A DNA stretch of 64,000 bases from Actinomycetota bacterium (GCA_003134555.1 PLBO01000082.1:61566-125565), one strand, 5' to 3'; positions 14,132-30,308 are shown, numbered from the stretch's first letter. Made by a program: numbers and translations. Notes: a model not told the origin generated them from the letters alone.

Positions 14132-15433
14132 TCAGCCGATCCGTTCTCGGACGCCGAGAATGCCTTGCGGACGCACGAGCAGTACGAGGATGAGGATGAC
14201 GAGCGCGATCGCGAACTGGAGATCGGACGGTAACCAGTAGGTGCCGACCTGCGATGCGACGCCGACGACCAGACCACCGGCCATTGCGCCATACGGGTTG
14301 CCGAGACCGCCCAGGACGATGGCCGCGAACATCGTGAGCAGCAGACGGAACCCCATGTTCCATTGCACGCCTTGCGATCCCACCCCCAGCATCACGCCGC
14401 CGAGTGCGGCCAGCATCGCGCCGGAGATCCATACGACGAGCGTCACCCCCGCGACGTTGATGCCCGATGCCGACGAGAGATCGCGCTCGTCGGACACGGC
14501 GCGAATCGCGGTGCCGAGGCGCGTTTGCCGCAGCATCGCGCCCACGACGAGCAGCATCACGAGGCAGATAGCCATGATGACGTAGTCGCGCACCGGCGAT
14601 TGCAGCGGTCCGATCTTGACTGGACTCGGTGCGGCGTATTCACGGTACGAGCGCGGCGCGCCCTTGAAGATCACCTGATAGATGTACCGCAGGACGAGCG
14701 CGAGCCCGATCGACACGAGCATGCGTCCGCTCGCTCCCGACCGGCGGCGCACCAGCGGCCGCCACAGACCGAGCTCGAGGCCGGCGCCGAGCACGCCGGC
14801 CGCGATCATTGCGATGATCGTGGCCAGCACGAGCGGAAGCCTGGGTCCGGAGCTCATCGTGTTCATCAACCACGCGATCAACGCGCCGAACGTCACGAGC
14901 TCGCCGTGCGCGAAATTCACGAGCCCCGTGGTGCCGTAGATCAGCGAGAGCCCGACCGAACACAACCCGACGATCAACCCGAACCGGATTCCGCTGACGA
15001 ACAGGTTGAGCAATTGATCGAGGCGCGACTGGCCGCCTGACGTTTTCGATTGCGCGGACGTCAGCGTGAATCCGGCGCTTTGCGCGAATGATCCGAACAC
15101 GCGATATTCCGCAAGCTCGGGGCGTTCGGCGCGCACACCAGAAGGCAACGTCGATACGTCCAGGGCGAGCTTGTACGTGCCCGGGCCGGGCACCCTGATC
15201 CGCCACGCACCGCGCTGGTCGGAGACCGCACGACCGACCTCGGTTGAGCCCTGGGACGCGGTGACGCGCACGCCGGGAACCGGATGACCGTCGACGGCGA
15301 GCGTGCCGCCGACGGAAGCGGATGGCGTGGTTGGCGTCGTAGTGGTGGTGGCGGCATGCGCCCGGCCCCCGCCGAGAAGCGCGCCGATGCCGGCGAGTCC
15401 GAACACGACGATCATCCGGCGTGCCTTCGGCAA
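14132..15433 (-). CDS. livH: LivH-like permease with N-terminal signal sequence and exported beta-sandwich-like (carboxypeptidase-regulatory/CnaB-type) domain
   Basis: Signal MIVVFGLAGIGALLGGGRAHA, then ASVGGTLAVDGHPVPGVRVTASQGSTEVGRAVSDQRGAWRIRVPGPGTYKLALD, then LivH core GTTGLVNFAHGELVTFGA. Start uncertain (TTG 15433 or ATG 15415). Confidence 0.85.
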   Translation of the reverse strand: MPKARRMIVVFGLAGIGALLGGGRAHAATTTTTPTTPSASVGGTLAVDGHPVPGVRVTASQGSTEVGRAVSDQRGAWRIRVPGPGTYKLALDVSTLPSGVRAERPELAEYRVFGSFAQSAGFTLTSAQSKTSGGQSRLDQLLNLFVSGIRFGLIVGLCSVGLSLIYGTTGLVNFAHGELVTFGALIAWLMNTMSSGPRLPLVLATIIAMIAAGVLGAGLELGLWRPLVRRRSGASGRMLVSIGLALVLRYIYQVIFKGAPRSYREYAAPSPVKIGPLQSPVRDYVIMAICLVMLLVVGAMLRQTRLGTAIRAVSDERDLSSASGINVAGVTLVVWISGAMLAALGGVMLGVGSQGVQWNMGFRLLLTMFAAIVLGGLGNPYGAMAGGLVVGVASQVGTYWLPSDLQFAIALVILILVLLVRPQGILGVRERIG

Positions 15434-15618
15434 CGCGACCTCCCGGTGCGTGGCGACGGCGGGAGCATAGGAGCACCGGAGGCCGCGGGGGGAGACGCCG
15501 CTCGTCGTGAGCCTGTTCTTCGTCGGGTTCGCGCGGCGTGCCGGCCGGCGAACGCACGCAAGCCGACGGCTAACGTTCCGGCAGCTCAACTCAGAAGTCG
15601 TCTTCGGCGGAGGACTCG

Positions 15619-16857
15619 GTGACCGACACGACGCAAGTCGACGTTGATGCGTTGCTCGCCGAGATCTTCCTGACCACCGAGGGCAAGTCCGATCCCTACC
15701 CCCGCTACGCGGCGATCCGCGAGCACTCGTCGGCTTTCCGCAGCGCCATGGGCTTCGTGGTCGTCGGCCGCTTCGAAGACTGCCAGTGGGTGCTGCGCGA
15801 CGCCCGCTTCGGCAAGGGCGAGATGAGCGCGATGTGGGAGACCTACGACCTGACCGAGGAGCAGTGGCGCGCGCGCTTTCCGGACATGGAGCGGCGGATG
15901 AGCTCGATGCTCGGCCTCGATCCGCCCGACCACACGCGTCTGCGCCGGCTCGTGGCGAAGGCGTTCACGCCCAAGACGGTCGAGAACCTCCGTCCCGACA
16001 TCGTGCGCCTCACCGACGAGCTGCTCGACCAGCTCGGTGATTCTGTTGACGTCGTGGCCGAGCTCGCGTTGCCGTTGCCGATGGCTGTCATCGGCGAGAT
16101 GTTGGGCATTCCCGCATCGGAGCGCATCGTGCTGCAGCCGTTCGTGCGTGACGCGGTCAAGACCCTCGAGCTCGATCCGCCGCTCGATCAGCTCGACGCG
16201 GCCGCGCACGCGCGCAAGGTCATCGCCGAACACATCGAGGCGCTGATCGCGGCGCGCCGCGCCGAGCCGACCGACGACCTGCTCTCCGAGCTCGTCCATG
16301 TGGAGGAGCAGGGTGACCAACTCACCCACGACGAACTGATCAGCACCGTCATCCTCCTTTTCGGCGCCGGCTTCGAGACGACCACGAACCTCATCGGCAA
16401 CGGGCTGCTCGCGTTGCTCGAGCACCCGGCCGAGCTGCAGCGTCTGCGTGACGACCGCTCGCTCATGAAGACTGCTGTCGAGGAGTTGTTGCGTTGGGAC
16501 GCGCCGATTCAGGTCGACGGGCGCAAGGTGTTCGAGGATGTCGAGGTGCACGGGATGACGGTCGCGGCGGGGCAGGAATTCGTCACGCTGCTGGGAGCCG
16601 CCAACCGCGACCCGCGTGTGTACGACGACCCCGAGCGATTCGACGTCGGTCGAGTCGCGCCGGCACCGATGAGCTTCGGGGCCGGCATTCACTACTGCCT
16701 CGGTGCCGCGCTCGCGCGCGCGGAGGCGCACGTCGTGTTCGACCGCCTGCTCGAGCGGTTCCCGGCGATCGAGCCCGACTGGGGCGATACGCGGCCTGCA
16801 TATCGCGACTCGATCGTGCTCCACGGCCTGGAGGCTCTTCCGGTTCGGCTCGCCTAG
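15619..16857 (+). CDS. Cytochrome P450
   Basis: I-helix LLFGAGFETTTN, ExxR, heme loop FGAGIHYCLGAALAR. Confidence 0.95.
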   Translation: MTDTTQVDVDALLAEIFLTTEGKSDPYPRYAAIREHSSAFRSAMGFVVVGRFEDCQWVLRDARFGKGEMSAMWETYDLTEEQWRARFPDMERRMSSMLGLDPPDHTRLRRLVAKAFTPKTVENLRPDIVRLTDELLDQLGDSVDVVAELALPLPMAVIGEMLGIPASERIVLQPFVRDAVKTLELDPPLDQLDAAAHARKVIAEHIEALIAARRAEPTDDLLSELVHVEEQGDQLTHDELISTVILLFGAGFETTTNLIGNGLLALLEHPAELQRLRDDRSLMKTAVEELLRWDAPIQVDGRKVFEDVEVHGMTVAAGQEFVTLLGAANRDPRVYDDPERFDVGRVAPAPMSFGAGIHYCLGAALARAEAHVVFDRLLERFPAIEPDWGDTRPAYRDSIVLHGLEALPVRLA

Positions 16858-16869
16858 GTCGTTGCGGAG

Positions 16870-18318
16870 CTATGTGAGTTCGTACGCCGCCGGGTCGGGT
16901 GTTTGCATGACGTCTCGGAAGCTGCTGAACGACCAGGGCCACACGGCGGGGAGGCCGCGGTCGTCGAGGTACCAGCTTTGACAACCGGTGACCCAGACGG
17001 TCTGCTTCGCGGCGAGCTCCCGGGCGCGTTCGAAGTCGGCCAATGCGTCGTGCGTCGCGCAGATCTCGCGGCCTTCGCCGGTCCGGATGCGCTCGATGAG
17101 CTGCATGATGTAGCGGAACTGGAGTTCGGCGACCTCGATGAGTGAGAAGTTCCCGACCGGACCGTTGGGGCCGTTCAGCAGGAAGAGGTTCGGGAAGTCG
17201 GGTATCGAGATCGACAGGAATGCCTCGGGTCGAGGTGTCCAGGCCTGTTCGAGCGTCATGCCGTCGCGGCCGACGATGTCGATCGGTCGCATGAACGCGT
17301 CGGCCTTGAAACCGGTTGCGAGCACGAGCACGTCGAGCTCGTGGAGGCGGCCGTCCTTCGTGCGCACACCGCTCGGTTCGATGCGCTCGATGGCGTCGGT
17401 GACGAGCTCGGCGTTCGGGCGCTGGATCGCGTCGTAGAAGTCGGGCGAGATGATCAGTCGTTTGCAGGCGGCGCGGTAGGTGGGACGGAGCCGTTCGCGC
17501 AGTTCCGAGTCGTGGACGTTGTTCTCGAGGTTCGCGAGACAGGCTTGTTGAATCATCTGGATCTCGGGCGATTCGGCGTCGACGACGGCGTTCGCGAAGA
17601 GGTCGAACATGTCCGACAAGTTCTGGCGCAATCCGGCGAGGTTCCCGGGATGCGCGCGAAACGCGGCGCGTTCCTCGTCGGTATACGCCGGGTTCTCCTG
17701 CGGCATGACCCACTGCGCGGTGCGTTGAAAAAGTGACAGTTTCGCGACGCGCTCGATGAGCGCCGACACCATCTGGACCGCGGTTGATCCAGTCCCGACG
17801 ATGCCGACGCGTGCGCCGTCGAGGTGAACGTCGTGGTCCCAGCGGGCGCTGTGGAACATCGCTCCGCGGAACGTGTCGAGTCCATCGATCTCCGGATACT
17901 TCGGGTGGTGCAGAACGCCGGTTGCCGCGATGACCACGTCGAAGTCGTCGCGGTATCCCGAGGCGGTCGTGAGGTGCCATGTCTTGTTCGCGAACACGCA
18001 GCGGGTGACCGTCTCGCCGAATCGGATTCGCGACAGCACGTCGTGTTCCTCGGCTACGTGCTCGAAGTACGCCTGGATCTCGGATCCGGGAGAGAAACGA
18101 CGGCTCCACTCGGGGTTCGGCCCGAAGGAATACGAGTACAAGTGCGACGGCACGTCACACGAAAGACCGGGGTAGGTGTTCTCTCGCCACGTTCCGCCGA
18201 CCCGATCGGCCTTCTCGAACACCGTGAAGTCGCGAAGTCCGGCCTCGGTCAGCTTGATCGCGGCGAGGATGCCCGCCATCCCGGCGCCGATAACCGCACA
18301 TCGCATTGTGCCTCGCAA
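16870..18318 (-). CDS. Flavin-dependent Baeyer-Villiger-type monooxygenase
   Basis: GAGMAGILAAIKL (FAD), GTGSTAVQ (NADP), BVMO fingerprint FRGAMFHSARWD (FxGxxxHxxxW). Confidence 0.9.
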   Translation of the reverse strand: MRGTMRCAVIGAGMAGILAAIKLTEAGLRDFTVFEKADRVGGTWRENTYPGLSCDVPSHLYSYSFGPNPEWSRRFSPGSEIQAYFEHVAEEHDVLSRIRFGETVTRCVFANKTWHLTTASGYRDDFDVVIAATGVLHHPKYPEIDGLDTFRGAMFHSARWDHDVHLDGARVGIVGTGSTAVQMVSALIERVAKLSLFQRTAQWVMPQENPAYTDEERAAFRAHPGNLAGLRQNLSDMFDLFANAVVDAESPEIQMIQQACLANLENNVHDSELRERLRPTYRAACKRLIISPDFYDAIQRPNAELVTDAIERIEPSGVRTKDGRLHELDVLVLATGFKADAFMRPIDIVGRDGMTLEQAWTPRPEAFLSISIPDFPNLFLLNGPNGPVGNFSLIEVAELQFRYIMQLIERIRTGEGREICATHDALADFERARELAAKQTVWVTGCQSWYLDDRGLPAVWPWSFSSFRDVMQTPDPAAYELT

Positions 18319-18324
18319 CGCGAT

Positions 18325-18828
18325 CTACTTCTCTTTTTGCAGCCACCGTTGGCCGAAGTCGTGTTCGGCGTCCATCGTCTTCTTGGCTTGGTCGAAGACG
18401 AAGTGCTCGAGCTTGCCGCCGATGAGCGGCACCGAGACCTTGATCCTGGCGTCGATGAATTGCACGGATCCTCCGCCGACCGCTTCCAGACGGGTTGTGC
18501 CGGAGGTGGAGACCGATACCGGCACCCCGTGTGGTTCGATTCGCCAGGTGCCGGATCGAGTGCCTTCCGACGCCGGCTCCCAGTCCTCTGTCTGCGTCAT
18601 CGCGTTGTTGGGCTTGAAGAACTTCTTGGCGAAACCCGGGATGTCGGCCTGCACCGTGCGGTTCGTCACGATACGGAAACCACCGTCGGGCGTCTCCGCG
18701 CACTCGACGACCTCGTACTCCAAAGCCCCCGTCGCCTCGAGCTTCGCGCGGAGGAACTCCGCGTCGGTGAGCATGGCAAAGACGACCTCCGGGCCCGCGT
18801 CGTACTCGTGCTCCACGTTGGCGTCCAT
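18325..18828 (-). CDS. DUF2505-type START/SRPBCC-like protein
   Basis: MDANVEHEYDAGPEVVFAMLTDAEFLRAKLEATGALEYEVVE pattern; 6 bp from the BVMO gene. Confidence 0.7.
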   Translation of the reverse strand: MDANVEHEYDAGPEVVFAMLTDAEFLRAKLEATGALEYEVVECAETPDGGFRIVTNRTVQADIPGFAKKFFKPNNAMTQTEDWEPASEGTRSGTWRIEPHGVPVSVSTSGTTRLEAVGGGSVQFIDARIKVSVPLIGGKLEHFVFDQAKKTMDAEHDFGQRWLQKEK

Positions 18829-18858
18829 GTCGCGAACCGTAACGCGTACGATCTCGGC

Positions 18859-21432
18859 GTGTCATCCACGGCGCCCGCAACGCTGCCACCGCGGGGCCTC
18901 GCCGGTCTCGACCCGTCGTGGTCGCGACTGATGATCACACCGAAGCTCGACGGGATCGGGCGCACCTGGCACGTCCTCGACAACGGTGTGATCGACCCGG
19001 CCGTCACGCTGTTGTGTGTGCACGGCAACCCGACGTGGTCGTACCTCTGGCGAGACATGCTTGCCCGCGCCGATCCCCGGGTTCGGGTCGTCGCCGTCGA
19101 CCAGCTCGAGATGGGATTCTCCGAGCGCACCGGCATGACGCGCCGGTTGCAACAGCGCGTCGACGACCTCTGCGCGCTCACCGACCAGCTCGAGTTGAGC
19201 GGACCGATCGTCACTGTCGCCCACGACTGGGGCGGTCCTATTTCGCTCGGGTGGGCGGCGCGGCATCGCGCGCAACTCGAAGGTGTGGTCTTGACGAACA
19301 CTGCAGTGCACCAGCCCCCGGGCTCACGCGCTCCGGCACTGATCCGAATGGCTCGACTGCCGGGTGTTCTGCAACTCGTGTGCGTGCAGACGCCGGCGTT
19401 CATCCAGGCGACACTCGAGTTGTCTCGGCCGCGGCTGGCCAAACCCGTTCGAGACGCGTATCACGCGCCGTACCGGTCAGCGCAGCGGCGCGCCGGCATC
19501 GGCGCGTTCGTGCAGGACATTCCCCTCGATCAATCGCACCCCAGCGCGGAGGCGCTCGACGGGATCGTCGCCGACGTAGCCACCCTTCGGGACATCCCCG
19601 CGTTGCTGCTCTGGGGACCATCGGATCCGGTGTTCTCCGATATCTACCTTCGTGATCTCGAGGCTCGCCTTCCCCGCGCCGACGTGCACCGGTTCGTCGG
19701 AGTGAGCCACCTCGTGCCCGAAGAGGCAGACGTCGCGGGAGTAGTGCACGAGTGGGTCGCGCGGCGCGGCGCGCCGTCAACGAGCACGTCGCAATCCCTC
19801 GTGGCGCCGGTGTCACGGGCTCCGGCCTGGGCCGCGCTCGACCGGCGCGCGGGTGACGCCGATCTGGCGATGATCGAGATGACCGACCACGGCATCGGCC
19901 GGTCGATCAGCTTCGCGGCGTTGGACGCCGACGTGCGGCGTGTGGCGGCCGGCCTGGTGGAACACGGTGTGGCGCGAGGCGATCGTGTCGCGCTGCTGAT
20001 TCCACCGGGGATCGACCTCACGGTGTGCCTGTACGCCTGCTGGCGCATGGGGGCGGTGGTGGTGGTGGTCGACGCGGGTCTCGGCGCTCGTGGCATCAGT
20101 CGAGCGCTCAAGAGCGCGACGCCGCGCCACCTCATCGGAATCCCGCGCGCCTTGACTGCCGCGCGACTCCTGGGTTGGCCCGGTCGGCGAATTTCATCCG
20201 TCGCGATGCCGGCCGGCGTCGCGCGGTCGCTCGCGGTCTCGACCACCCTCGATGAGCTGCGCGCGCGGGGCGAGGGCCGGCCGGTCCCGCCGACCCCGAC
20301 CGATTCCGACCCGGCGGCGGTGATCTTCACTTCGGGTGCTACCGGCCCGGCCAAGGGCGTGTCATATCGGCACCACCAACTCCAAGCTCAACGCGATGTG
20401 CTCGCGCGCGTGTACGACATCAACGCCGACGACAGGTTCGTCGCCGCGTTCGCGCCGTTCGCGCTGTACGGACCGGCGATGGGGGTCCCGTCGGTCGTAC
20501 CGGACATGAGCGTGACCGCGCCCGGCACGCTGCGCGCGGTCGCGCTGGCCGAGGCGGCCGAAGCAATCGGTGCGTCGCTCGTGTTCGCGTCGCCCGCCGC
20601 CTTGGCCAACGTGATCGCCACCGCGGGTGATCTCACACCGCGCCATCGTGAAGCGCTGGCCAAGGTACGGCTGCTCTTGTCGGCCGGCGCGCCGGTGCCG
20701 AGCTCGGTCCTCCGTGCTGTGGCGGAGATCATGCCGAACGCCGAGGCTCACACGCCCTACGGCATGACCGAGGTGCTACCCGTTTCCGACATCACGCCGG
20801 CCGGGATCGAGGCCGCGGGCGCGGGCAACGGCGTCTGTGTCGGCCGCCCCCTCGCCGAGGTGTCGGTCGCGATCAGTCCGCTCGACGTCGATGGTCATGC
20901 CACCGGCGAGTTGACCACGCACGCGGATGCCACGGGCGAAGTGTGCGTCCAGGCCGCGCATGTGAAAGACGGTTACGACAAGCTCTGGGTCGTCCAGCAC
21001 GACAGCGCGCAGCCGCCGTACTGGCACCGGAGCGGCGATGTCGGCCACCTCGACGATCAGGGTCGGCTGTGGATCGAAGGGCGGATGATCCACATCATCA
21101 CGACCGCGAACGGGCCCGTCACGCCAGTAGGGATCGAGCAAGCCGTCGAGTCCATGGCCGAGGTCGGCCACGCCGCGTTGGTCGGGGTGGGGCCCGCCGG
21201 AACGCAGCAGCTTGTCGTGGTAGTCGTTCCCATCGAGCGCCGAAGGCGGCCCGACCTTGCACCCGTCGCGCTGGCGGAACGCGTCCGAGCAGTCGCGGGC
21301 GTCGACATCGCGGCCGTCTTCGTCGTTCCCGCGTTGCCGGTGGACAAGCGGCACAACTCGAAGATCGACCGGAGCCGGGTCGCCAAATGGGCGAGCGCGG
21401 TACTTGCCGGCGGTCGGATGCGCGCACTGTGA
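18859..21432 (+). CDS. oleBC: OleB-OleC fusion: alpha/beta-hydrolase (beta-lactone decarboxylase-like) + AMP-binding beta-lactone synthetase-like
   Basis: OleB half with haloalkane-dehalogenase-type nucleophile elbow VAHDWGGPISLG; OleC half with VIFTSGATGPAKGVSYRH and LPVDKRHNSKIDRSRVAKW. GTG start. Confidence 0.85.
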   Translation: MSSTAPATLPPRGLAGLDPSWSRLMITPKLDGIGRTWHVLDNGVIDPAVTLLCVHGNPTWSYLWRDMLARADPRVRVVAVDQLEMGFSERTGMTRRLQQRVDDLCALTDQLELSGPIVTVAHDWGGPISLGWAARHRAQLEGVVLTNTAVHQPPGSRAPALIRMARLPGVLQLVCVQTPAFIQATLELSRPRLAKPVRDAYHAPYRSAQRRAGIGAFVQDIPLDQSHPSAEALDGIVADVATLRDIPALLLWGPSDPVFSDIYLRDLEARLPRADVHRFVGVSHLVPEEADVAGVVHEWVARRGAPSTSTSQSLVAPVSRAPAWAALDRRAGDADLAMIEMTDHGIGRSISFAALDADVRRVAAGLVEHGVARGDRVALLIPPGIDLTVCLYACWRMGAVVVVVDAGLGARGISRALKSATPRHLIGIPRALTAARLLGWPGRRISSVAMPAGVARSLAVSTTLDELRARGEGRPVPPTPTDSDPAAVIFTSGATGPAKGVSYRHHQLQAQRDVLARVYDINADDRFVAAFAPFALYGPAMGVPSVVPDMSVTAPGTLRAVALAEAAEAIGASLVFASPAALANVIATAGDLTPRHREALAKVRLLLSAGAPVPSSVLRAVAEIMPNAEAHTPYGMTEVLPVSDITPAGIEAAGAGNGVCVGRPLAEVSVAISPLDVDGHATGELTTHADATGEVCVQAAHVKDGYDKLWVVQHDSAQPPYWHRSGDVGHLDDQGRLWIEGRMIHIITTANGPVTPVGIEQAVESMAEVGHAALVGVGPAGTQQLVVVVVPIERRRRPDLAPVALAERVRAVAGVDIAAVFVVPALPVDKRHNSKIDRSRVAKWASAVLAGGRMRAL

Positions 21433-22406
21433 GGGTCCTCGTCACCGGCGCGACGAGCTTGCTCGGCGGAGCGGTCGCACAGCGACTGCAAGCCCGGGGT
21501 GACCACGTGACGGTGTTCCAGCGCCGACCGAGCGGGTTGGGGTTTCGCGAAGTGCTCGGCGACGTCGCCGATCGGTCGGCCGTCGACGCCGCACTTGCCG
21601 GAGTCGACGTGGCCATCCACGCGGCCGCCAGAGTCTCGGTCGTCGGACCGTGGTCGGCGTTCGCGGAAACCAATATCACCGGCACTACGAACATGCTCGA
21701 CGCGGCTCGAACCGCCGGAGTCACTCGATTCGTGTACGTCTCCTCGCCGTCGGTTGCCAATGCCGGCAAGTCGCTCGTGGGCGCTCCGGCCGGGCCGGCC
21801 GATCCCGACTCGGCGCGGGACAACTACTCCCGGAGCAAGGCGTCCGCCGAACTGTTGGCGCTCGCCGCCGCCACGAGTGGTTTCTCAGTTGTTGCGGTGC
21901 GGCCACATCTCGTGTGGGGTCCGGGTGACACTCAACTCGTCGGTCGCATAGTCAGTCGGGCTCGCGAGGGCCGGCTGGCCGTGATCGGTTCCGGTGCGGC
22001 ATTGATCGACACGACGTACATCGACAACGCGGCCGATGCGATCGTCGCGGCGGCGGATCGTGCCGGCGAGTTGAGCGGGCGCGCCCTCGTGGTGTCGAAC
22101 GGGCAACCGAGGCCGGTGCGCGAGTTGCTGAACCGGATCGCGTTGGCTGCCGGACTCGAGCCTCCTCGGCTCCGGGTACCGGTAGGGGTTGCCCGCGCCG
22201 CCGGAGCCGTCCTCGAGCGCGCATGGGCAGGTCTTCGACGCGAAGACGATCCGCCGATCACCAGGTTCCTCGCCGAACAGCTCTCGACTGCGCATTGGTT
22301 CGACCAGCGCGAAACCCGCGAGGCGCTCGGGTGGCAACCCTCGGTGGATCTCGATGAAGGTTTCGCCCGTCTGGAGTCGTGGTTCCTAGCCCGTCGGAAC
22401 CGATGA
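21429..22406 (+). CDS. oleD: OleD-like NAD(P)-dependent 3-oxoacid/3beta-HSD family reductase
   Basis: VRVLVTGATSLLGGAVAQRL, YSRSKASAE (YxxxK); GTG start overlaps the oleBC stop. Confidence 0.82.
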   Translation: MRVLVTGATSLLGGAVAQRLQARGDHVTVFQRRPSGLGFREVLGDVADRSAVDAALAGVDVAIHAAARVSVVGPWSAFAETNITGTTNMLDAARTAGVTRFVYVSSPSVANAGKSLVGAPAGPADPDSARDNYSRSKASAELLALAAATSGFSVVAVRPHLVWGPGDTQLVGRIVSRAREGRLAVIGSGAALIDTTYIDNAADAIVAAADRAGELSGRALVVSNGQPRPVRELLNRIALAAGLEPPRLRVPVGVARAAGAVLERAWAGLRREDDPPITRFLAEQLSTAHWFDQRETREALGWQPSVDLDEGFARLESWFLARRNR

Positions 22407-22673
22407 GCGCACGAAGGCGGTCAGGTCTGCGACCGTTTCGAGCCACGGCAGCGTGGGCGGGTCGGTCACATCGTCGACCGAGAGGCCGAGGTCGTCGAGG
22501 ATCTGCTCGCGAACGCTGAGGAGTGCCTCGATCAGGGACAAAGAGTCGAGGCCGACGTCGCTGAGCAACGCGTCGTCGCGGAAGACGGCAATCGGCTCGC
22601 CGGTGACGGCGGCGAGCTCGGCTCGGAGCAGCGCGGCGATCGGATCGGCATCGGCATCGGCGGCGGAGGTCAT
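22386..22673 (-). CDS. Acyl carrier protein
   Basis: 95 aa with phosphopantetheine motif GLDSLSLIE; ATGA overlap with the upstream FAAL gene. Confidence 0.88.
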   Translation of the reverse strand: MTSAADADADPIAALLRAELAAVTGEPIAVFRDDALLSDVGLDSLSLIEALLSVREQILDDLGLSVDDVTDPPTLPWLETVADLTAFVRSSVPTG

Positions 22674-24304
22674 CCGAAGTTCATCCTTGCCAGCATGCCG
22701 TCGTCGGTGGCGAGCGATCTGCTGATCGCGAGGCGGCGGAGCTTCCCGCTCGGGGTTTTCGGCAACGACCCGCGCGGCACGAACGCGACGGTGGCAAGCG
22801 AGCAGCCCGTCTGACTCGCGACCGCCGTACGGATGCCGCGGCACGCCGTCTCGAGCTCCGTCGTCGACATGTGCTTGCTCGGTTCGACAACGATGGCAAG
22901 ACCGCCGTCGGGCGCCGCGACCGCAGCGATGCACCCTTGACGGATGGACCCGTGCTGCACGGCGGTCTCGATGTCGTCCGGATACACGTTGCGGCCGGCG
23001 ACGACGATGGCCTCGTCGCCGCGGCCGACGACGAACAGCTCGCCGTCGCGCATCAACCCGATGTCGCCGGTGACGAAGTAGCCGTCGTCTGTGAGGCACA
23101 GCTCCGCGCCGAGGTACCGAGAGAGAAGTGAAGCGCTGCGAAACTCGATCGGCCCGACGGGCCCGTCGCTCGGCGCGATCCGCACGTCGGTTCCGGCGAA
23201 CGGGGAGCCGGTGGAGACGAGCGCCGCCGCGCCGCCCGGCCCGTCGCCGTCAGCCGGCCGCGGGATCGAGCGCCACGGCTCGTGGGGACGCACCATCGTG
23301 ACCGCGAGCGTCGCTTCGGCCAACCCGTATCCCGGGCAGAACGCCAACGGGCGAAAACCCGTCGGCACGAACGCTTCTGTGAACCGCTCGAGCGTGTCGG
23401 CTCGGACCGCTTCCGAACCGACGATGATCGCTCGCAGCCGCGACAGGTCGAGCGATCCGATGCGGCGGCTCGCGCGGACCGCCAGATCCAACGCGAAGTT
23501 CGGGGCGACGGTGATGGTCGACCCCGTCGCGGAGCAGGTCCGCAGCCACGACCGCGGGTTGGCCATGAACGTCTCGGGCTTCATGAGCGTGAGTCGGTGA
23601 TCACCGAATTCGTGGGAACCCGCAGCCAGCGGCGCCAGGAGCTGTCCGATCAGACCCATGTCGTGCGACAGCGGAAGCCATGAGCACGAAGCGTCACCGG
23701 CTACGGGCTCGAGCGCCGCCACGATTGCGGTGACGTTCGCGCCGACCGCGTCGAGGGTCAAGAAGATGCCCTTCGGGGTTCCGATGCTGCCCGAGGTGAA
23801 CTGCACCAGTGCGCCTTCGCCGCTCAACGAGGACGGAGGACCACCGGAGAGTGTCTCGTCGAACGTGTGTACCGCGAGCGGTGCATCATCGAGCAACGAC
23901 GCCTGAGCCGCGTCCAACAAGAGCATCCGCGCCCCTGCGGCCGCGCAGAACCGCGTGAGTTGGTCGGCATAGACCTGCGGCGACATCCCGCGCGCCGGCA
24001 ACGGGAGTGACGCAACGGCGCAACCGGCGCGCCAGGCTCCGAACAGCGCGGTGACACAGGAGCGGGTGTTCGTGAGTACCGCCGCGATGGTGCCGCCCGC
24101 TCCCACCTTCGTGGCCATCCATCGGGCGGCGCCCTCCGCCGAGTCCCACAGCGCGCCGATCGCGGTCGGCTCCGGCTCGTCGCCGACGAAGTGCACGGTC
24201 CCGTTGCCGGCCGCGCTGTCGTCCAACAGGTCGAGCATCGAGATCGCGTGGGCGCGGCCGCGGGCGGTATCCGGACCGGTTGCGGTGGCCAGTTCGGCTG
24301 TCAT
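22670..24304 (-). CDS. Fatty acyl-AMP ligase-like (FAAL) adenylating enzyme
   Basis: VQFTSGSIGTPKGIFLT, SWLPLSHDMGLIGQLLAPL, CPGYGLAEATLAVT, TPSGKLRR; adjacent ACP. Confidence 0.85.
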   Translation of the reverse strand: MTAELATATGPDTARGRAHAISMLDLLDDSAAGNGTVHFVGDEPEPTAIGALWDSAEGAARWMATKVGAGGTIAAVLTNTRSCVTALFGAWRAGCAVASLPLPARGMSPQVYADQLTRFCAAAGARMLLLDAAQASLLDDAPLAVHTFDETLSGGPPSSLSGEGALVQFTSGSIGTPKGIFLTLDAVGANVTAIVAALEPVAGDASCSWLPLSHDMGLIGQLLAPLAAGSHEFGDHRLTLMKPETFMANPRSWLRTCSATGSTITVAPNFALDLAVRASRRIGSLDLSRLRAIIVGSEAVRADTLERFTEAFVPTGFRPLAFCPGYGLAEATLAVTMVRPHEPWRSIPRPADGDGPGGAAALVSTGSPFAGTDVRIAPSDGPVGPIEFRSASLLSRYLGAELCLTDDGYFVTGDIGLMRDGELFVVGRGDEAIVVAGRNVYPDDIETAVQHGSIRQGCIAAVAAPDGGLAIVVEPSKHMSTTELETACRGIRTAVASQTGCSLATVAFVPRGSLPKTPSGKLRRLAISRSLATDDGMLARMNFG

Positions 24305-24314
24305 CGTTCCCCGT

Positions 24315-25352
24315 TCAAAGAACCAGCGGGATCACTGCCGCGCTGAATCCAGCCGCTCCTCCGACGAGGAGAACCTTGTCGCCGGCTGCCGCACGCCCTT
24401 CTTCGATGGCGAGGTCGAGCGCGAACGGGATGCTTGCGGCCGCGGTGTTGCCGAACCGGTCGAGCGTCACGACGCAGCGGTCGAGGGGATATCTCAGGAG
24501 CGACGACACACGTTCGATGACCGACCTCGAGACCTGGTGGGGAACGACGAGGGCAACGTCGTCGAGCGCCCAGTCCAGCTTCATGAGCACGTCGGTCACC
24601 AGCGCGGGGATGCGAGCGACGGCGAGTTGCTGCAATTTCATGCTGCGGCACTCGAAGAACATCCGGTCGGGTGCCGCGCCGTAGCGGGAGCCGCCCGCGA
24701 GCACCGTCGAGAGCTCCCAATGGCGACCGTCCGACTCGAACGCGCCGCGCATGACGCCGCGTTCCGGAGCCGCACTCGCCTCGAGGACGCAAGCCGCGCC
24801 GGCATCTCCCAACGTGAGTGCCGCCAGACGCTGGGGCAGATCCTCGGAACCGTCGATGTCCCACTTGATGAACGGCAGGAGGCGCTCGCCGGCCGCGACG
24901 ACCACTCGTGGCGCGCGGCCGGTCTCGATGAAGGCCTGCGCCACGTCGAGCCCGTTGAGGAAGCTGTTGCACGCGTTCTTCACGTCCATCACGGCGGCGC
25001 GTTCACAACCCAGCGCGATCTGCAGCATGTTGGCTGTAGCGGGCTCCGCGACGTCGTGCGATGCCGACGCGAAGATCAGGAGATCGACGTCGCGGGGCTC
25101 GATTCCCGCGCTCGCCATGGCTTTCTCCGCGGCGCGCGCAGCGAGGTCGGATGAGCACACACCGTCGGACGCGTAGCGGCGCTCGACGACACCGGTAGCG
25201 AGACGGATGATGCCCTTCGGGATTCGCCACCCGCCGCTGCACTCGTTGACGCGCGTCTCGACCATGTCCGAGGTCCACACGTCGTCGGGCTCGTAGCGTC
25301 CTGTCCCGGTGATGAGGGCTCGGATACGAGACCCATTCTCGTTCTGAGTCAT
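24315..25352 (-). CDS. 3-oxoacyl-ACP synthase III family protein (OleA/FabH-like condensing enzyme)
   Basis: Cys-His-Asn triad positions: KNACNSFLNG, VPHQVSRSV, RFGNTAAASIP. Confidence 0.85.
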   Translation of the reverse strand: MTQNENGSRIRALITGTGRYEPDDVWTSDMVETRVNECSGGWRIPKGIIRLATGVVERRYASDGVCSSDLAARAAEKAMASAGIEPRDVDLLIFASASHDVAEPATANMLQIALGCERAAVMDVKNACNSFLNGLDVAQAFIETGRAPRVVVAAGERLLPFIKWDIDGSEDLPQRLAALTLGDAGAACVLEASAAPERGVMRGAFESDGRHWELSTVLAGGSRYGAAPDRMFFECRSMKLQQLAVARIPALVTDVLMKLDWALDDVALVVPHQVSRSVIERVSSLLRYPLDRCVVTLDRFGNTAAASIPFALDLAIEEGRAAAGDKVLLVGGAAGFSAAVIPLVL

Positions 25353-25513
25353 TGTTCGGCGTACCCCGCTCCACACGTCGTCGCGCGGATCTGCATTGAC
25401 GACGCTGCCACTTCAGGACCCCGTGCAGGTCCCGGAGACCCCGAGTTTCAAATGCCCGATTCCGGCTCCTGGCGGCAGACTATGCCCGAGCACAGGACCA
25501 ACTCAACTGACGA

Positions 25514-25942
25514 TCAGCCCGGTTCGGGCACCTTGCGGGCCTCACGCAACTCACCGGCCAGCGCGATGAGCAGCTGCTCGGCCAGATCCGAGAACTCGCG
25601 GAGCATCGTCCGGAACATGCGGATACCGATCACCGCCACCTTCACGTCGGTCGCGGCGACGACCGTCGCGCTGCGCGGTTCGCCGTCGAGGATCGCCATC
25701 TCCCCGAAGTAAGCGCCCGGACCGGACCGGCTGACCTCCATGCCACCTTGGTACACGATGGCCTCGCCGTCGAGGATGACGAACAGCGCGTCGCCGGGCT
25801 CGCCCTCCTTGACGAGGTCGACTCCCGCGGGCAGGTCGGCGATCTGCGCGTGGCGAGCGATCGTGCGGCGTTGCCGCGAGCTGCACTTCGAGAAGAGTTT
25901 GACGTCGACCAAGAGGTCGGCGAGATCTCGCTTTGGTCCCAT
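25514..25942 (-). CDS. Cyclic nucleotide-binding domain protein
   Basis: VKEGEPGDALFVILDGEAIVYQGG...PGAYFGEMAILDGEPRSATVVA. Confidence 0.85.
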   Translation of the reverse strand: MGPKRDLADLLVDVKLFSKCSSRQRRTIARHAQIADLPAGVDLVKEGEPGDALFVILDGEAIVYQGGMEVSRSGPGAYFGEMAILDGEPRSATVVAATDVKVAVIGIRMFRTMLREFSDLAEQLLIALAGELREARKVPEPG

Positions 25943-26041
25943 TCCCGCCTCCCGCGTGCGCCACGCGACCGACCAACCTACGCTGCGCGCTGCACTCTTT
26001 CACGATGATGCCGGCGAAGTCGACTAAGAGCGGGGAGACAA

Positions 26042-28276
26042 GTGCGGCGCTTGGCACTCTTTGTGGTCCGCCGGCGGTGGTGGGTGATCGGCCTAGCCTT
26101 GATCGCGTTGCCGGCTTCCGCGCTTTACGGCGGCGGCGTGCACGGCAAGCTTTCGCCGGGTGGCTTTGTCGATCCCGGGGCCGAATCGAGCCGAGCGGCC
26201 GCAGCCATCGCCAAGGAGTTCCCGGGCTCCGGCCAGTCCGACTTCGTAATCCTCGTGACGGCCAAGCGCGGCACGGTCGACAGCCCGGCGGTGGTCGCGG
26301 CCGGGACCGCCCTCACGCAACGCTTGGGCCGAGCCCACGGCGTGGTCTCGTCCTTTTCGTATTGGAGCCTCGGCAAGCTCCCGCCATTGCGCAGCCGTGA
26401 CCAGCGTCAAGCGCTCGTCTTCGCCTCGTTGCGCGGAACCGACGACGCGAAGATCAAGCTGGCCGCCGAGCTGGCGCCCGAGTTCGACGCCGACACCAAG
26501 GTCGTGAGTACCGGCGTGACGGGAGTTGCCGTCGTGACCAGCCAGCTCTCCGACCAGGCCGAGAAGGATCTCCAGAAATCCGACCTCCTCACCGGCCCGT
26601 TCACGTTCGTCGCGCTGGTGTTCGTCTTCGGCAGCTTGGCGGCGGCGCTGTTGCCGCTCGGCGTCGCGTTGCTCGCCGTATTGGGCACGTTCGTCGTGCT
26701 TACCGTTCTCGCGCAGCTCACGACCGTTTCGGTCTTCTCGCTCAACCTCGCGACCGGCCTCGGCCTCGGGCTCGCGATCGACTACAGCCTGTTCGTGGTC
26801 TCCCGTTACCGCGAAGAGTTCGCCCGCGGCGTGTCGGTTCCCGTCGCGATCGGAAGATCGATGCAAACCGCGGGGCGAACCGTCGCCTTCAGCGCGGGCA
26901 CGGTCGCGATCTCGCTCATGGCGCTGGCGATCTTCCCCATTCCGTATCTTCGTTCGTTCGCCTATGCAGGTGTTGCGGTTGTGGCCCTCGCGGCCGTGTC
27001 GGCGATCGTGGTGCTGCCGGCCGTCCTCGCTGTACTCGGTTCACGCGTCGAGCGGTTCCGTGTGTTCAAGGTGCGCGAGGTGACCGAGGGCGGCGCCTGG
27101 CGCCGTCAGGCCGATCGCGTCATGCGCCATCCCGTGCCGTATGCCGTCACGATCAGCCTCGTGCTGATCCTGCTCGCGATCCCGTTCTTCCACTTGAATC
27201 TCGGCCTCTCCGACGACCGGGTCGGACCGAAGAACATGAGCAGCCGAGTCGCCACCGATCAGTACCGTGCTCACTTCGCGAGCAGGGAAGCCGACGCGCT
27301 CTCGGTCCTGGTTCCCGGCATCGACACGAAAACCGACCTCAAGGCAATAGATCGCTTCGCCACCGAACTCGCGAGCCTTCCGAACGTCGCACGCGTCGAC
27401 GCTCTCAGCGGCGAGTACTTGGTGATGAACAACAAAGTTGTCCCCGTGCCGCCGATCCCCGGGGTCGTGCAACGGTTCACGCCGCCGCCCGGGCAGCGCG
27501 GCACCTACCTCTCGGTCGTGCCCGACGTCGAACCGCTCTCGAAACAAGGCGAGCAACTGGTCAAGGACATCCGCTCTGCTCATGCGCCGTTCACATTCTC
27601 GGTTTCCGGACTCTCGGCAAGGCTGGTCGACACCAGAGAATCGGTTATCAGCCGCCTGCCACTGGCGCTCGGGCTCGTCGCATTCGCGACCTTCGTGCTG
27701 CTGTTCTTGATGACGGGCAGCCTCCTCATCCCGATCAAGGCGTTGGTACTCAACATGCTCTCGCTCACCGCGACGTTCGGCGCCACGGTGTGGATCTTCC
27801 AAGACGGCCATCTTGCGAACCTGCTGCATTTCACGCCGACGGGCACGATCGACGTCTTTACGCCGATCCTGATGTTCTGCATCGCGTTTGGACTCTCGAT
27901 GGACTATGAGGTGTTCTTGCTCTCTCGTATCAAGGAGGAATACGACCTCGAACGCGACAACGAGCGCGCCGTATCGATCGGCTTGCAGAAGACGGGCCGG
28001 ATCGTCACGGCGGCCGCGCTCCTGCTCACGATCGTCTTCATCGGTATCGCGACCTCGGAAGTCGCGCTGGTGAAGGCCTTCGGTGTCGGGCTCGGAATCG
28101 CTGTGCTCGTCGACGCGTTCCTCATCCGCGCGACCCTCGTTCCCGCGTTCATGAGGCTCGCGGGTCGTGTCAACTGGTGGTCGCCGCGGTGGCTCCGCCG
28201 ATGGCACCTTCGGTTCGGGATCTGGGAGAACGAACCGATCGCGCTCCTCGACCGCGAGTTCGAGACGAGCGTGTGA
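26042..28276 (+). CDS. MMPL/RND family transporter
   Basis: Two sets of TM helices with GLGLAIDYSLFVVSRYREEF and FGLSMDYEVFLLSRIKEEYD. Confidence 0.92.
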   Translation: MRRLALFVVRRRWWVIGLALIALPASALYGGGVHGKLSPGGFVDPGAESSRAAAAIAKEFPGSGQSDFVILVTAKRGTVDSPAVVAAGTALTQRLGRAHGVVSSFSYWSLGKLPPLRSRDQRQALVFASLRGTDDAKIKLAAELAPEFDADTKVVSTGVTGVAVVTSQLSDQAEKDLQKSDLLTGPFTFVALVFVFGSLAAALLPLGVALLAVLGTFVVLTVLAQLTTVSVFSLNLATGLGLGLAIDYSLFVVSRYREEFARGVSVPVAIGRSMQTAGRTVAFSAGTVAISLMALAIFPIPYLRSFAYAGVAVVALAAVSAIVVLPAVLAVLGSRVERFRVFKVREVTEGGAWRRQADRVMRHPVPYAVTISLVLILLAIPFFHLNLGLSDDRVGPKNMSSRVATDQYRAHFASREADALSVLVPGIDTKTDLKAIDRFATELASLPNVARVDALSGEYLVMNNKVVPVPPIPGVVQRFTPPPGQRGTYLSVVPDVEPLSKQGEQLVKDIRSAHAPFTFSVSGLSARLVDTRESVISRLPLALGLVAFATFVLLFLMTGSLLIPIKALVLNMLSLTATFGATVWIFQDGHLANLLHFTPTGTIDVFTPILMFCIAFGLSMDYEVFLLSRIKEEYDLERDNERAVSIGLQKTGRIVTAAALLLTIVFIGIATSEVALVKAFGVGLGIAVLVDAFLIRATLVPAFMRLAGRVNWWSPRWLRRWHLRFGIWENEPIALLDREFETSV

Positions 28277-28304
28277 TCGACCAAGCGTTTGTCGGCTGAG
28301 TTCC

Positions 28305-29117
28305 CTAGACGCGAGCAGGCGCGACGGGGGCGCCGGCGACGTCGACTCTCGTGCGGAGCACGCAACCGCGCAACTCGGGGTGGTCGGAGTGGCCGCCGGT
28401 CGTGACGTAGAGATCGCGGCCGGCGAAGCACAGGCTGGTCGTGAACGCCGACGGCGGTTCGATTCTTCGGTCGACCTCGCCGTCGGGCGTGAGCCGCACG
28501 ATGCCGCCACTCACGAGCGCGAGCCAGACGGCGCCGTGCTCGTCGAGTGCCATGCCGTCGGGATGTCCGAACGCGGATACGTCGATGTCGCGGCGGGAGC
28601 CGTTCTCGACGTCGAAGACGATGACTCGCTGTCGGCGCGTGTCGCTGAGGTAGATCTCGCGACCGTCGGTCGTGCAGGCCACCCCGTTCGCGTGCACCAC
28701 GTCGCCGAACATGATGGTGGGGTCGCCCTCGAGTCCGACGCGCCACAACTCACCGGGAACGACCTCGGCGTCGGGATCGAACACCGCAAAGCGCAACGCG
28801 CCGGCGTAGATGCGTCCCGCAGTGTCCGTGCACAGATCGTTCCATCCGGCGACGCCGTCGACGCCGAGCACGGTGCGTTGTTCGTGGCCGTCGCGGACGT
28901 GGATCACATCGCGACCAGTGCAGACGATCCCGCCGTCCGCATGGATCGCGATGCCGCCGACGCCGCGCCGCTTGGGTACCACAGTGGTGACGGTGCCGTC
29001 GCCGTCGACGCGGTAGATACCGCCGCCCAGGACGTCGGAGAACACGAGCGAACCGTCGGTGTCGATCGTGGGCGCTTCCGCGAGCCCGTAACCGTGCGCA
29101 ACTACGTCCCAGTCCAT
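28305..29117 (-). CDS. SMP-30/gluconolactonase family protein
   Basis: LAEAPTIDTDGSLVFSDVLGGGIYRVD...HADGGIVCTGRD...PDGMALDEHGAVWLALVSGG. Confidence 0.85.
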   Translation of the reverse strand: MDWDVVAHGYGLAEAPTIDTDGSLVFSDVLGGGIYRVDGDGTVTTVVPKRRGVGGIAIHADGGIVCTGRDVIHVRDGHEQRTVLGVDGVAGWNDLCTDTAGRIYAGALRFAVFDPDAEVVPGELWRVGLEGDPTIMFGDVVHANGVACTTDGREIYLSDTRRQRVIVFDVENGSRRDIDVSAFGHPDGMALDEHGAVWLALVSGGIVRLTPDGEVDRRIEPPSAFTTSLCFAGRDLYVTTGGHSDHPELRGCVLRTRVDVAGAPVAPARV

Positions 29118-29153
29118 GCCCGCAGGACACTAAGGCGAGCGCCGAGCCCGCGG

Positions 29154-29490
29154 TCAACCCAAGTAGTTGCCCGCGATGCGGTGGTTGCGGGAACGGCCCA
29201 AGACGGCGTTCGCGGCCTGCAGGCCTGACAGTGTCGCCGCCTCGATGCAACCCGCGTTGAGCCCGTTGTCGGTCCAGTCGCCGGCCACGAACAGATTGTC
29301 GTAGCCGCTTTCGTCGGCGCGGAACCGGTACCGGTCTGTCCCCGGCGCGCATTGCACATAGCGGTCGGAGGGATCGACGTTGGCGCTGATGAACTGCGTG
29401 TCGAGCGCGTCGGCGCCGCGCTCCCCGCGGGTGCCACACAGCAAGTCCCACCGCGCGCCGTCGGGAGACTCAGCCGTTCGAGTGCATGCG
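29154..29490 (-). pseudogene. C-terminal remnant of an FAD-dependent amine oxidase/desaturase-like gene
   Basis: Only the tail is recognisable: YRFRADESGYDNLFVAGDWTDNGLNAGCIEAATLSGLQAANAVLG; upstream frame is antisense to the DUF2182 gene. The 5' boundary is approximate. Confidence 0.6.
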
Positions 29491-29522
29491 GTCGGCGTCT
29501 GAAGCGTGGCATGGTGCTCTGT

Positions 29523-30308
29523 ATGGCGGCGACGAGCGAACGCGGCGCAGCGGTTGGCGCGTTGCGGTCGCGGCAGCTGCTCGGCCCGCTCCTCCTCGCC
29601 GCCGCGGCGACGTGGGCTGCCGTCGTCGCGATCTGGCGCAGTTTGGGTGCGATGCCGGGAACGATGGGCCTTGGTGTCGCCGCGTTCGGCGGTGTCTGGA
29701 TCCTGATGATGGCCGCGATGATGTTGCCGAGCGTCGCTCCATTCGCGTCGTTCTACACGCGTACCTTCACTGATCGGCGCCGGCGACGCCTCGTCGCGTT
29801 CACGGCCGGCTACCTGTTGGTGTGGACGGCAGCCGGGCTGCCCGTGTTCGGTCTCGCGTGGATCGCAGATCGACTCGTCACGGCACATCCGGGAGCGGCT
29901 ACGGCGTTCGCGGCGCTGATCTTCCTCGTCTGTGGCTTGTATCAGCTGACGCCGTTCAAGGACCGCTGCCTCGCGCGTTGTCGGTCGCCTCTCGCGTTCA
30001 CGTTGGAGCATGCAGCGCACCGCGGTCGGGGCCGCGACCTGCGCGCGGGCATGTCTCACGGTGTCTTCTGCGTCGCCTGCTGCTGGGCGATCATGCTGTT
30101 GCTCGTCGCATTCGGGCTGATGAATGTCCTCGCGATGCTGATCATCGCCGCGGTTGTGTTGGCCGAGAAGACCTGGCGCTGGGGTGGAGGGGTCGCGCGA
30201 GCATTCGGCGTCGCATCGATCGTGCTCGCACTGGTTGTGGTCGCCCATCCCGCGGTGGCGCCCGGCCTGTACTCGCCCAACCCGACGATGACCGAAGGAA
30301 CGATGTGA
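29523..30308 (+). CDS. DUF2182-type membrane protein
   Basis: Multi-TM with WILMMAAMMLPSVAPF and GMSHGVFCVACCWAIM, typical of DUF2182. Confidence 0.75.
   Translation: MAATSERGAAVGALRSRQLLGPLLLAAAATWAAVVAIWRSLGAMPGTMGLGVAAFGGVWILMMAAMMLPSVAPFASFYTRTFTDRRRRRLVAFTAGYLLVWTAAGLPVFGLAWIADRLVTAHPGAATAFAALIFLVCGLYQLTPFKDRCLARCRSPLAFTLEHAAHRGRGRDLRAGMSHGVFCVACCWAIMLLLVAFGLMNVLAMLIIAAVVLAEKTWRWGGGVARAFGVASIVLALVVVAHPAVAPGLYSPNPTMTEGTM

Follow-up and report, generated by a model that had tools for sequence, protein, structure and literature searches.

A locus for olefin biosynthesis (Ole) in the class Acidimicrobiia has probably had its usual condensing enzyme, OleA, displaced once by a dedicated module consisting of a KAS III, a fatty acyl-AMP ligase (FAAL) and an acyl carrier protein (ACP). 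The reactions assigned to the module below are predictions from gene content. We refer to the whole 64,000-nucleotide stretch of DNA analysed as the window (GCA_003134555.1 PLBO01000082.1:61566-125565). It comes from a 4.63-Mb MAG of 154 contigs and 98% completeness (G000). The locus comprises five genes:

18859..21432, + strand: OleB-OleC fusion (beta-lactone decarboxylase and beta-lactone synthetase domains), 857 aa; Pfam and NCBIfam matches
21429..22406, + strand: OleD, a 2-alkyl-3-oxoalkanoate reductase and NAD-dependent SDR; NF042422, YxxxK motif
22386..22673, - strand: dedicated ACP, 95 aa; GLDSL serine, PF00550 above cut-off
22670..24304, - strand: FAAL, 544 aa; MbtM/FAAL NCBIfam models
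24315..25352, - strand: KAS III with the OleA/PpyS-type catalytic glutamate; E103, C128, H272 and N302, ACP_syn_III

The first-pass annotation described an OleB-OleC fusion and OleD that converge on a KAS III, FAAL and ACP, and all five genes are open at these positions. The overlap of about 21 bp that it reported between the oleD and ACP stops is also there (22386-22406). Its ATGA coupling on the minus strand holds for FAAL-ACP (4 bp overlap) but not for KAS III-FAAL, which are separated by a 10-bp gap containing a GGGGA ribosome-binding-like stretch. The OleBC-OleD junction is a 4 bp overlap. Since oleBC-oleD and KAS III-FAAL-ACP converge, they do not form one transcript. No RNA elements were found at 15000-30000 at Rfam gathering thresholds. 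The five-gene set recurs in two other MAGs with proteins 65-89% identical, which rules out chance or an assembly artefact as its origin.

We searched for OleBC in genomes of the order (58) and of the class (395); 75 of the latter have matches at E 1e-50 or better. We read about 58 stretches around these matches for gene order. Nearly all that cover the upstream side carry a single oleA-oleBC-oleD operon (about 45 loci of the class), and the OleAs of these normal operons are 23-30% identical to the KAS III of the window. Only three genomes have oleBC-oleD without oleA: that of the window, a congener (G052) and a member of another family (G027). All three are MAGs, and the contig of G052 stops within oleBC. 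The KAS III-FAAL-ACP module adjoins oleBC-oleD in 3/3 of them, with its order and tight spacing unchanged. In G027 about 6 kb lies between oleD and the ACP, encoding an ABC transporter, a patatin/cNMP protein and a WS/DGAT acyltransferase, yet the module is still linked. The last of these genes, of wax-ester-synthase type (L035:5189-6652, - strand), follows one base after the ACP, and the G027 operon thus reads KAS III-FAAL-ACP-WS/DGAT.

The module is equally rare. Among the 395 genomes of the class, the window-type KAS III occurs in three only (E 1e-170 or better; next best 3e-48), and in a phylum sample of 397 genomes it occurs in the window genome only. The window-type FAAL is found in the same three genomes of the class and in G286, where the relative is 48% identical and has no KAS III or oleBC nearby. 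The earlier reading had tied itself to co-conservation of the two halves, and the same three of 395 genomes indeed hold both the KAS III and an OleA-less oleBC-oleD. Two further genomes of the window's genus, G051 and G053 (88% and 74% complete), showed neither oleBC-oleD nor the KAS III module.

The first-pass annotation had named a separate oleA as a finding that would refute it; none was found in the operon or elsewhere in the three genomes. A scan of G000 for the KAS III C-terminal family yields only the window KAS III, a split FabH and an HMG-CoA-synthase-like protein; G027 and G052 return the same three kinds of protein, and the same scan recovers the OleAs of seven control genomes. A profile built from ten OleAs, run on the three genomes, ranks the KAS III first (130-136 bits) and FabH next (up to 92 bits). 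Neither the family scan, with its positive controls, nor the profile thus found an OleA hidden elsewhere in these genomes. We also looked for an OleA remnant upstream of oleBC and saw none. In a concatenated OleBC-OleD tree the three OleA-less loci form one clade (SH-aLRT 100), and this clade lies inside a group of 33 with full support whose other members carry OleA. Because the clade is nested among normal operons, the simplest history is that OleA was lost or displaced once.

The KAS III has the active-site residues expected of an OleA substitute. Alignments identify a C128, H272, N302 triad and E103, giving the Cys-His-Asn plus Glu117-type base of OleA. Glu103 replaces a residue that is mostly hydrophobic in the FabHs compared; a Glu stands at this position in 82/82 KAS III relatives and 53/53 OleAs and is absent from those FabHs. 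The relatives were gathered partly with the pattern MDVKNAC, so their conservation is biased near the Cys, but not at the Glu. The register was taken from mutant structures of Xanthomonas OleA: 5vxf reads RDYLQPST for RDYLEPST at the E103 position, and 5vxd is described as E117A. This E117 is described as key to condensation (Jensen 2017, as cited in PMC7064751), and in the photopyrone synthase PpyS the mutation E105A causes loss of activity (PMC4578411). MxnB and CorB resemble the window enzyme as KAS III enzymes that join two chains; unlike it, they have Val in place of the Glu and belong with FabH (PMC4578411). Against the published OleA pattern, EPxx[AS]x(14,18)DxxNACL (PMC7158056), the window KAS III fails at the last residue only (E103-P-A-T-A, 15 residues, D-V-K-N-A-C, then N129). 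The residue after NAC is L in 53/53 OleAs and N in 82/82 members of the window KAS III lineage.

Phylogeny separates this lineage from both known families. A branch with support 99/98 has every FabH on the same side; its support is 100/99 once the Glu column is masked and long rows are taken out. An AU test rejects trees in which the window-type KAS III joins FabH (p-AU 0.021) and also those in which it joins OleA alone (p-AU 0.020). The enzyme thus lies outside the OleA clade and, in trees built without PpyS, LstA and LstB, is best regarded as a lineage of its own, the third after FabH and OleA. These results bear on the reading, in our view very improbable, that treats the KAS III as an ordinary paralogue of FabH, using malonyl-ACP decarboxylatively to prime a dedicated fatty acid. 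Its overall identity is about 28-30% to FabH versus 23-30% to OleA, and its fold (AlphaFold model, pLDDT 91.8) is also nearer FabH, the nearest solved structures by both sequence and fold being FabHs. Against such a paralogue stand the Glu at the OleA E117 position, scores below the FabH model cut-offs and the placement off the FabH side of the tree. The first-pass annotation had set its KAS III apart from housekeeping FabH, and the two do not group; the model scores, the Glu, the tree and a separate fabH rule out that identity.

The housekeeping FabH of G000 is split over two contig ends and has FabD, FabG, AcpP and FabF as neighbours, so fatty acid synthesis has its own gene set. One part lies at the end of G000:C23 (L031) and the other at the start of G000:C92 (L033), and fatty acid synthesis genes flank both. 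The fabG in L031 has ambiguous bases beside a duplicated NNA stretch, an assembly gap.

Relatives of the KAS III keep similar company. Outside the three genomes, genes for a GT2 glycosyltransferase, P450 and OleC-family ligase accompany it in 69/78 related loci, and in most of these the ligase is followed by an OleD-like SDR. This association of the lineage with OleC-type genes supports a role equivalent to that of OleA.

Several of these loci merit description in their own right. A widespread actinobacterial cluster (L128-L203; e.g. L149:10010-15800) reads KAS III with the OleA-type Glu, GT2, P450, OleC-family ligase and OleD-like SDR, with no OleB seen; its gene content suggests a beta-lactone-type or related lipid pathway, so far uncharacterised. 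In 11 loci (L149:61-16621 and ten more) this cluster lies between adk and map in the ribosomal-protein (spc) region, an odd placement for a secondary-metabolism cluster. Three Bacteroidota contigs (L127:9095-13517, L168:9917-13644 and L198:8662-13317) have KAS III, OleC-family ligase and SDR consecutively; directly upstream, L127 has an AurF-like oxygenase, as does L198 judging by similarity. Outside the class, the nearest KAS III (49%) is on a Candidatus Acetothermia contig (L126:8346-11011), with a divergent OleD-like reductase nearby and neither OleC nor FAAL within 10 kb.

The FAAL is closer to FAALs than to CoA ligases. Its best NCBIfam matches are FAAL/MbtM models at about 300 bits, short of the individual equivalog cut-offs, and it scores 26.4 bits against PF23024 (cut-off 27.0). 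Among PDB entries it matches FadD32-type and other FAALs best (up to 174 bits), versus 48 bits or less for CoA ligases. G000 has no second FAAL of this kind at E 1e-30. The ACP is distinct from the separately encoded housekeeping AcpP, and copies 65-85% identical occupy the same place in G027 and G052. From the gene order we infer that the KAS III uses this ACP. The mean net charge of the ACP-docking helix is +0.5 in window-type KAS III, -1.4 in OleA and +0.1 in FabH (4 sequences, post hoc), a weak hint that the helix is FabH-like and less acidic than that of OleA.

A KAS III that replaces OleA could still condense two acyl-CoAs, leaving the FAAL and ACP to a side function such as fatty acid recycling or another lipid. 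The catalytic Glu and the absence of OleA require the KAS III alone, its other relatives stand beside OleC-family ligases without an adjacent FAAL, and in G027 a WS/DGAT acyltransferase comes directly after the ACP. We nevertheless think a side function unlikely, given the tight KAS III-FAAL-ACP order kept in all three genomes and the presence of the window FAAL in only one other genome of 395, as the 48% relative in a different setting.

The remainder of the locus is the oleBC-oleD part of an Ole pathway: an OleB-OleC fusion is followed by OleD, and the catalytic residues are present. OleBC consists of alpha/beta hydrolase and AMP-binding domains, matches OleC models at about 300 bits and is 72% identical to that of G027 and 60-66% identical to those of the nearest oleA-oleBC-oleD operons; the full protein has no PDB match at E 1e-40. 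Of the columns with at least 97% conservation across normal loci it retains 95/95, among them D123, D256 and H284, which we take to be the OleB catalytic residues from the haloalkane-dehalogenase fold. OleD retains 51/51 such columns, with YxxxK at 133-137, and scores 306.6 bits against NF042422, under the equivalog cut-off of 580. Known beta-lactone-making clusters have no oleB (PMC7064751). The first-pass annotation had offered either a beta-lactone, if OleB were inactive, or an alkene. With these conserved columns and OleB residues intact, the sequence makes an alkene the likelier end product and a beta-lactone less likely.

The two halves might alternatively serve different ends, with KAS III-FAAL-ACP forming a separate lipid or pyrone pathway (PpyS-like, or making an MmpL-exported mycolate-like lipid) and oleBC-oleD fed from elsewhere. 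Their convergence and the intervening 6 kb in G027 would fit this, PpyS has the same Glu and yields pyrones (PMC4578411), and an MmpL3-like transporter is among the genes beyond the KAS III:

25514..25942, - strand: cyclic-nucleotide-binding domain protein; PF00027, 84% copy in G052, a genus-only neighbour that we leave outside the pathway
26084..28276, + strand: MmpL transporter with MmpL3-like domain; PF03176, NF052608 373 bits, 87% copy adjoining the G052 KAS III

Three observations make such a division improbable: leaving the KAS III aside, our searches of the three genomes turned up no first-step Ole enzyme; OleBC and OleD are nevertheless fully constrained; and no genome of the class sample has the module without oleBC-oleD. 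The MmpL protein, conserved in the genus, is a possible exporter. The window genome and its congener carry the segment encoding the cNMP protein and MmpL in opposite orientations (window 25514-28276; L036:13263-16027). On the other flank, a P450 (15619-16857, + strand) and a Baeyer-Villiger-type monooxygenase resembling pentalenolactone D synthase (16870-18279, - strand) converge just upstream of oleBC. We rejected these two as pathway members, there being no copies in the G027 and G052 stretches, the latter contig ending inside oleBC.

We return to a single pathway fed by the module. On balance, and with some reserve, we lean towards a third head-to-head KAS III lineage that took over the first step of olefin synthesis and draws on a private ACP loaded by the FAAL. 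Long-chain olefins would then be made from free or unusual fatty acids and not from the acyl-CoA pool. The FAAL would convert a free fatty acid to acyl-AMP and load it onto the private ACP. The KAS III would take one acyl chain on Cys128, and the condensation product would be released as a 2-alkyl-3-keto acid. OleD would then reduce this acid, OleC would close the reduced product to a beta-lactone, and OleB would decarboxylate the lactone to a long-chain alkene. All substrates and reactions in this scheme, including the ACP-borne chain, the thioester hydrolysis and the end product, are putative. OleC acts on a free acid, so a condensation product bound to ACP requires a hydrolysis step for which the locus does not account.

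Parts of the scheme have precedents. In mycolic acid synthesis by FadD32-ACP-Pks13, a FAAL loads an ACP, and the 2-alkyl-3-keto product that a ketosynthase makes from two long chains is reduced by an SDR. The proposed scheme shares the FAAL-loaded ACP, the joining of two chains and the SDR reduction; it differs in that Pks13 is a decarboxylative type I PKS and that beta-lactone and olefin steps do not follow. For LstA-LstB, the OleACD-type lipstatin system, we know of no FAAL or ACP in the clusters. Lipstatin synthesis resembles the proposed route in an OleA-like condensation of two chains followed by OleC/OleD-type steps, whereas it uses acyl-CoAs and has no OleB (PMC7064751), which is present and intact in the window. 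The OleABCD systems of Xanthomonas campestris and Micrococcus luteus (the latter oleA-oleBC-oleD; PMC7064751, PMC7158056) have in common with the window the OleBC fusion and OleD, with all conserved residues, and a condensing enzyme of the Cys-His-Asn-Glu type as source of the beta-keto acid; the window differs in lacking OleA and in having, on the opposite strand, a FAAL, an ACP and a KAS III of a distinct lineage. The photopyrone and pseudopyronine synthases PpyS/PyrS are also KAS III-type enzymes with a catalytic Glu, an agreement in catalytic residues only. They perform head-to-head condensation, lie outside the FabH clade and are thought able to use ACP- or CoA-bound chains; unlike the window system they make pyrones, and no OleB, OleC or OleD is described alongside them (PMC4578411). 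In the open literature, outside which most Ole biochemistry lies, we found no paper combining a FAAL with Ole genes. The locus would be a variant of the known Ole pathway, the new element being the FAAL/ACP/KAS III feed in place of OleA.

Long-chain olefin pathways, and many that lead to beta-lactones, have OleA as their gatekeeper, and its substrates are believed to be acyl-CoAs. If the proposed displacement is true, the first Ole step is swappable, and Ole chemistry is tied to carrier-protein chemistry of the kind used in mycolate or pyrone assembly. The finding also points to a large and apparently unstudied group of Glu-bearing KAS III enzymes beside OleC-family genes in Actinobacteria and Bacteroidota.
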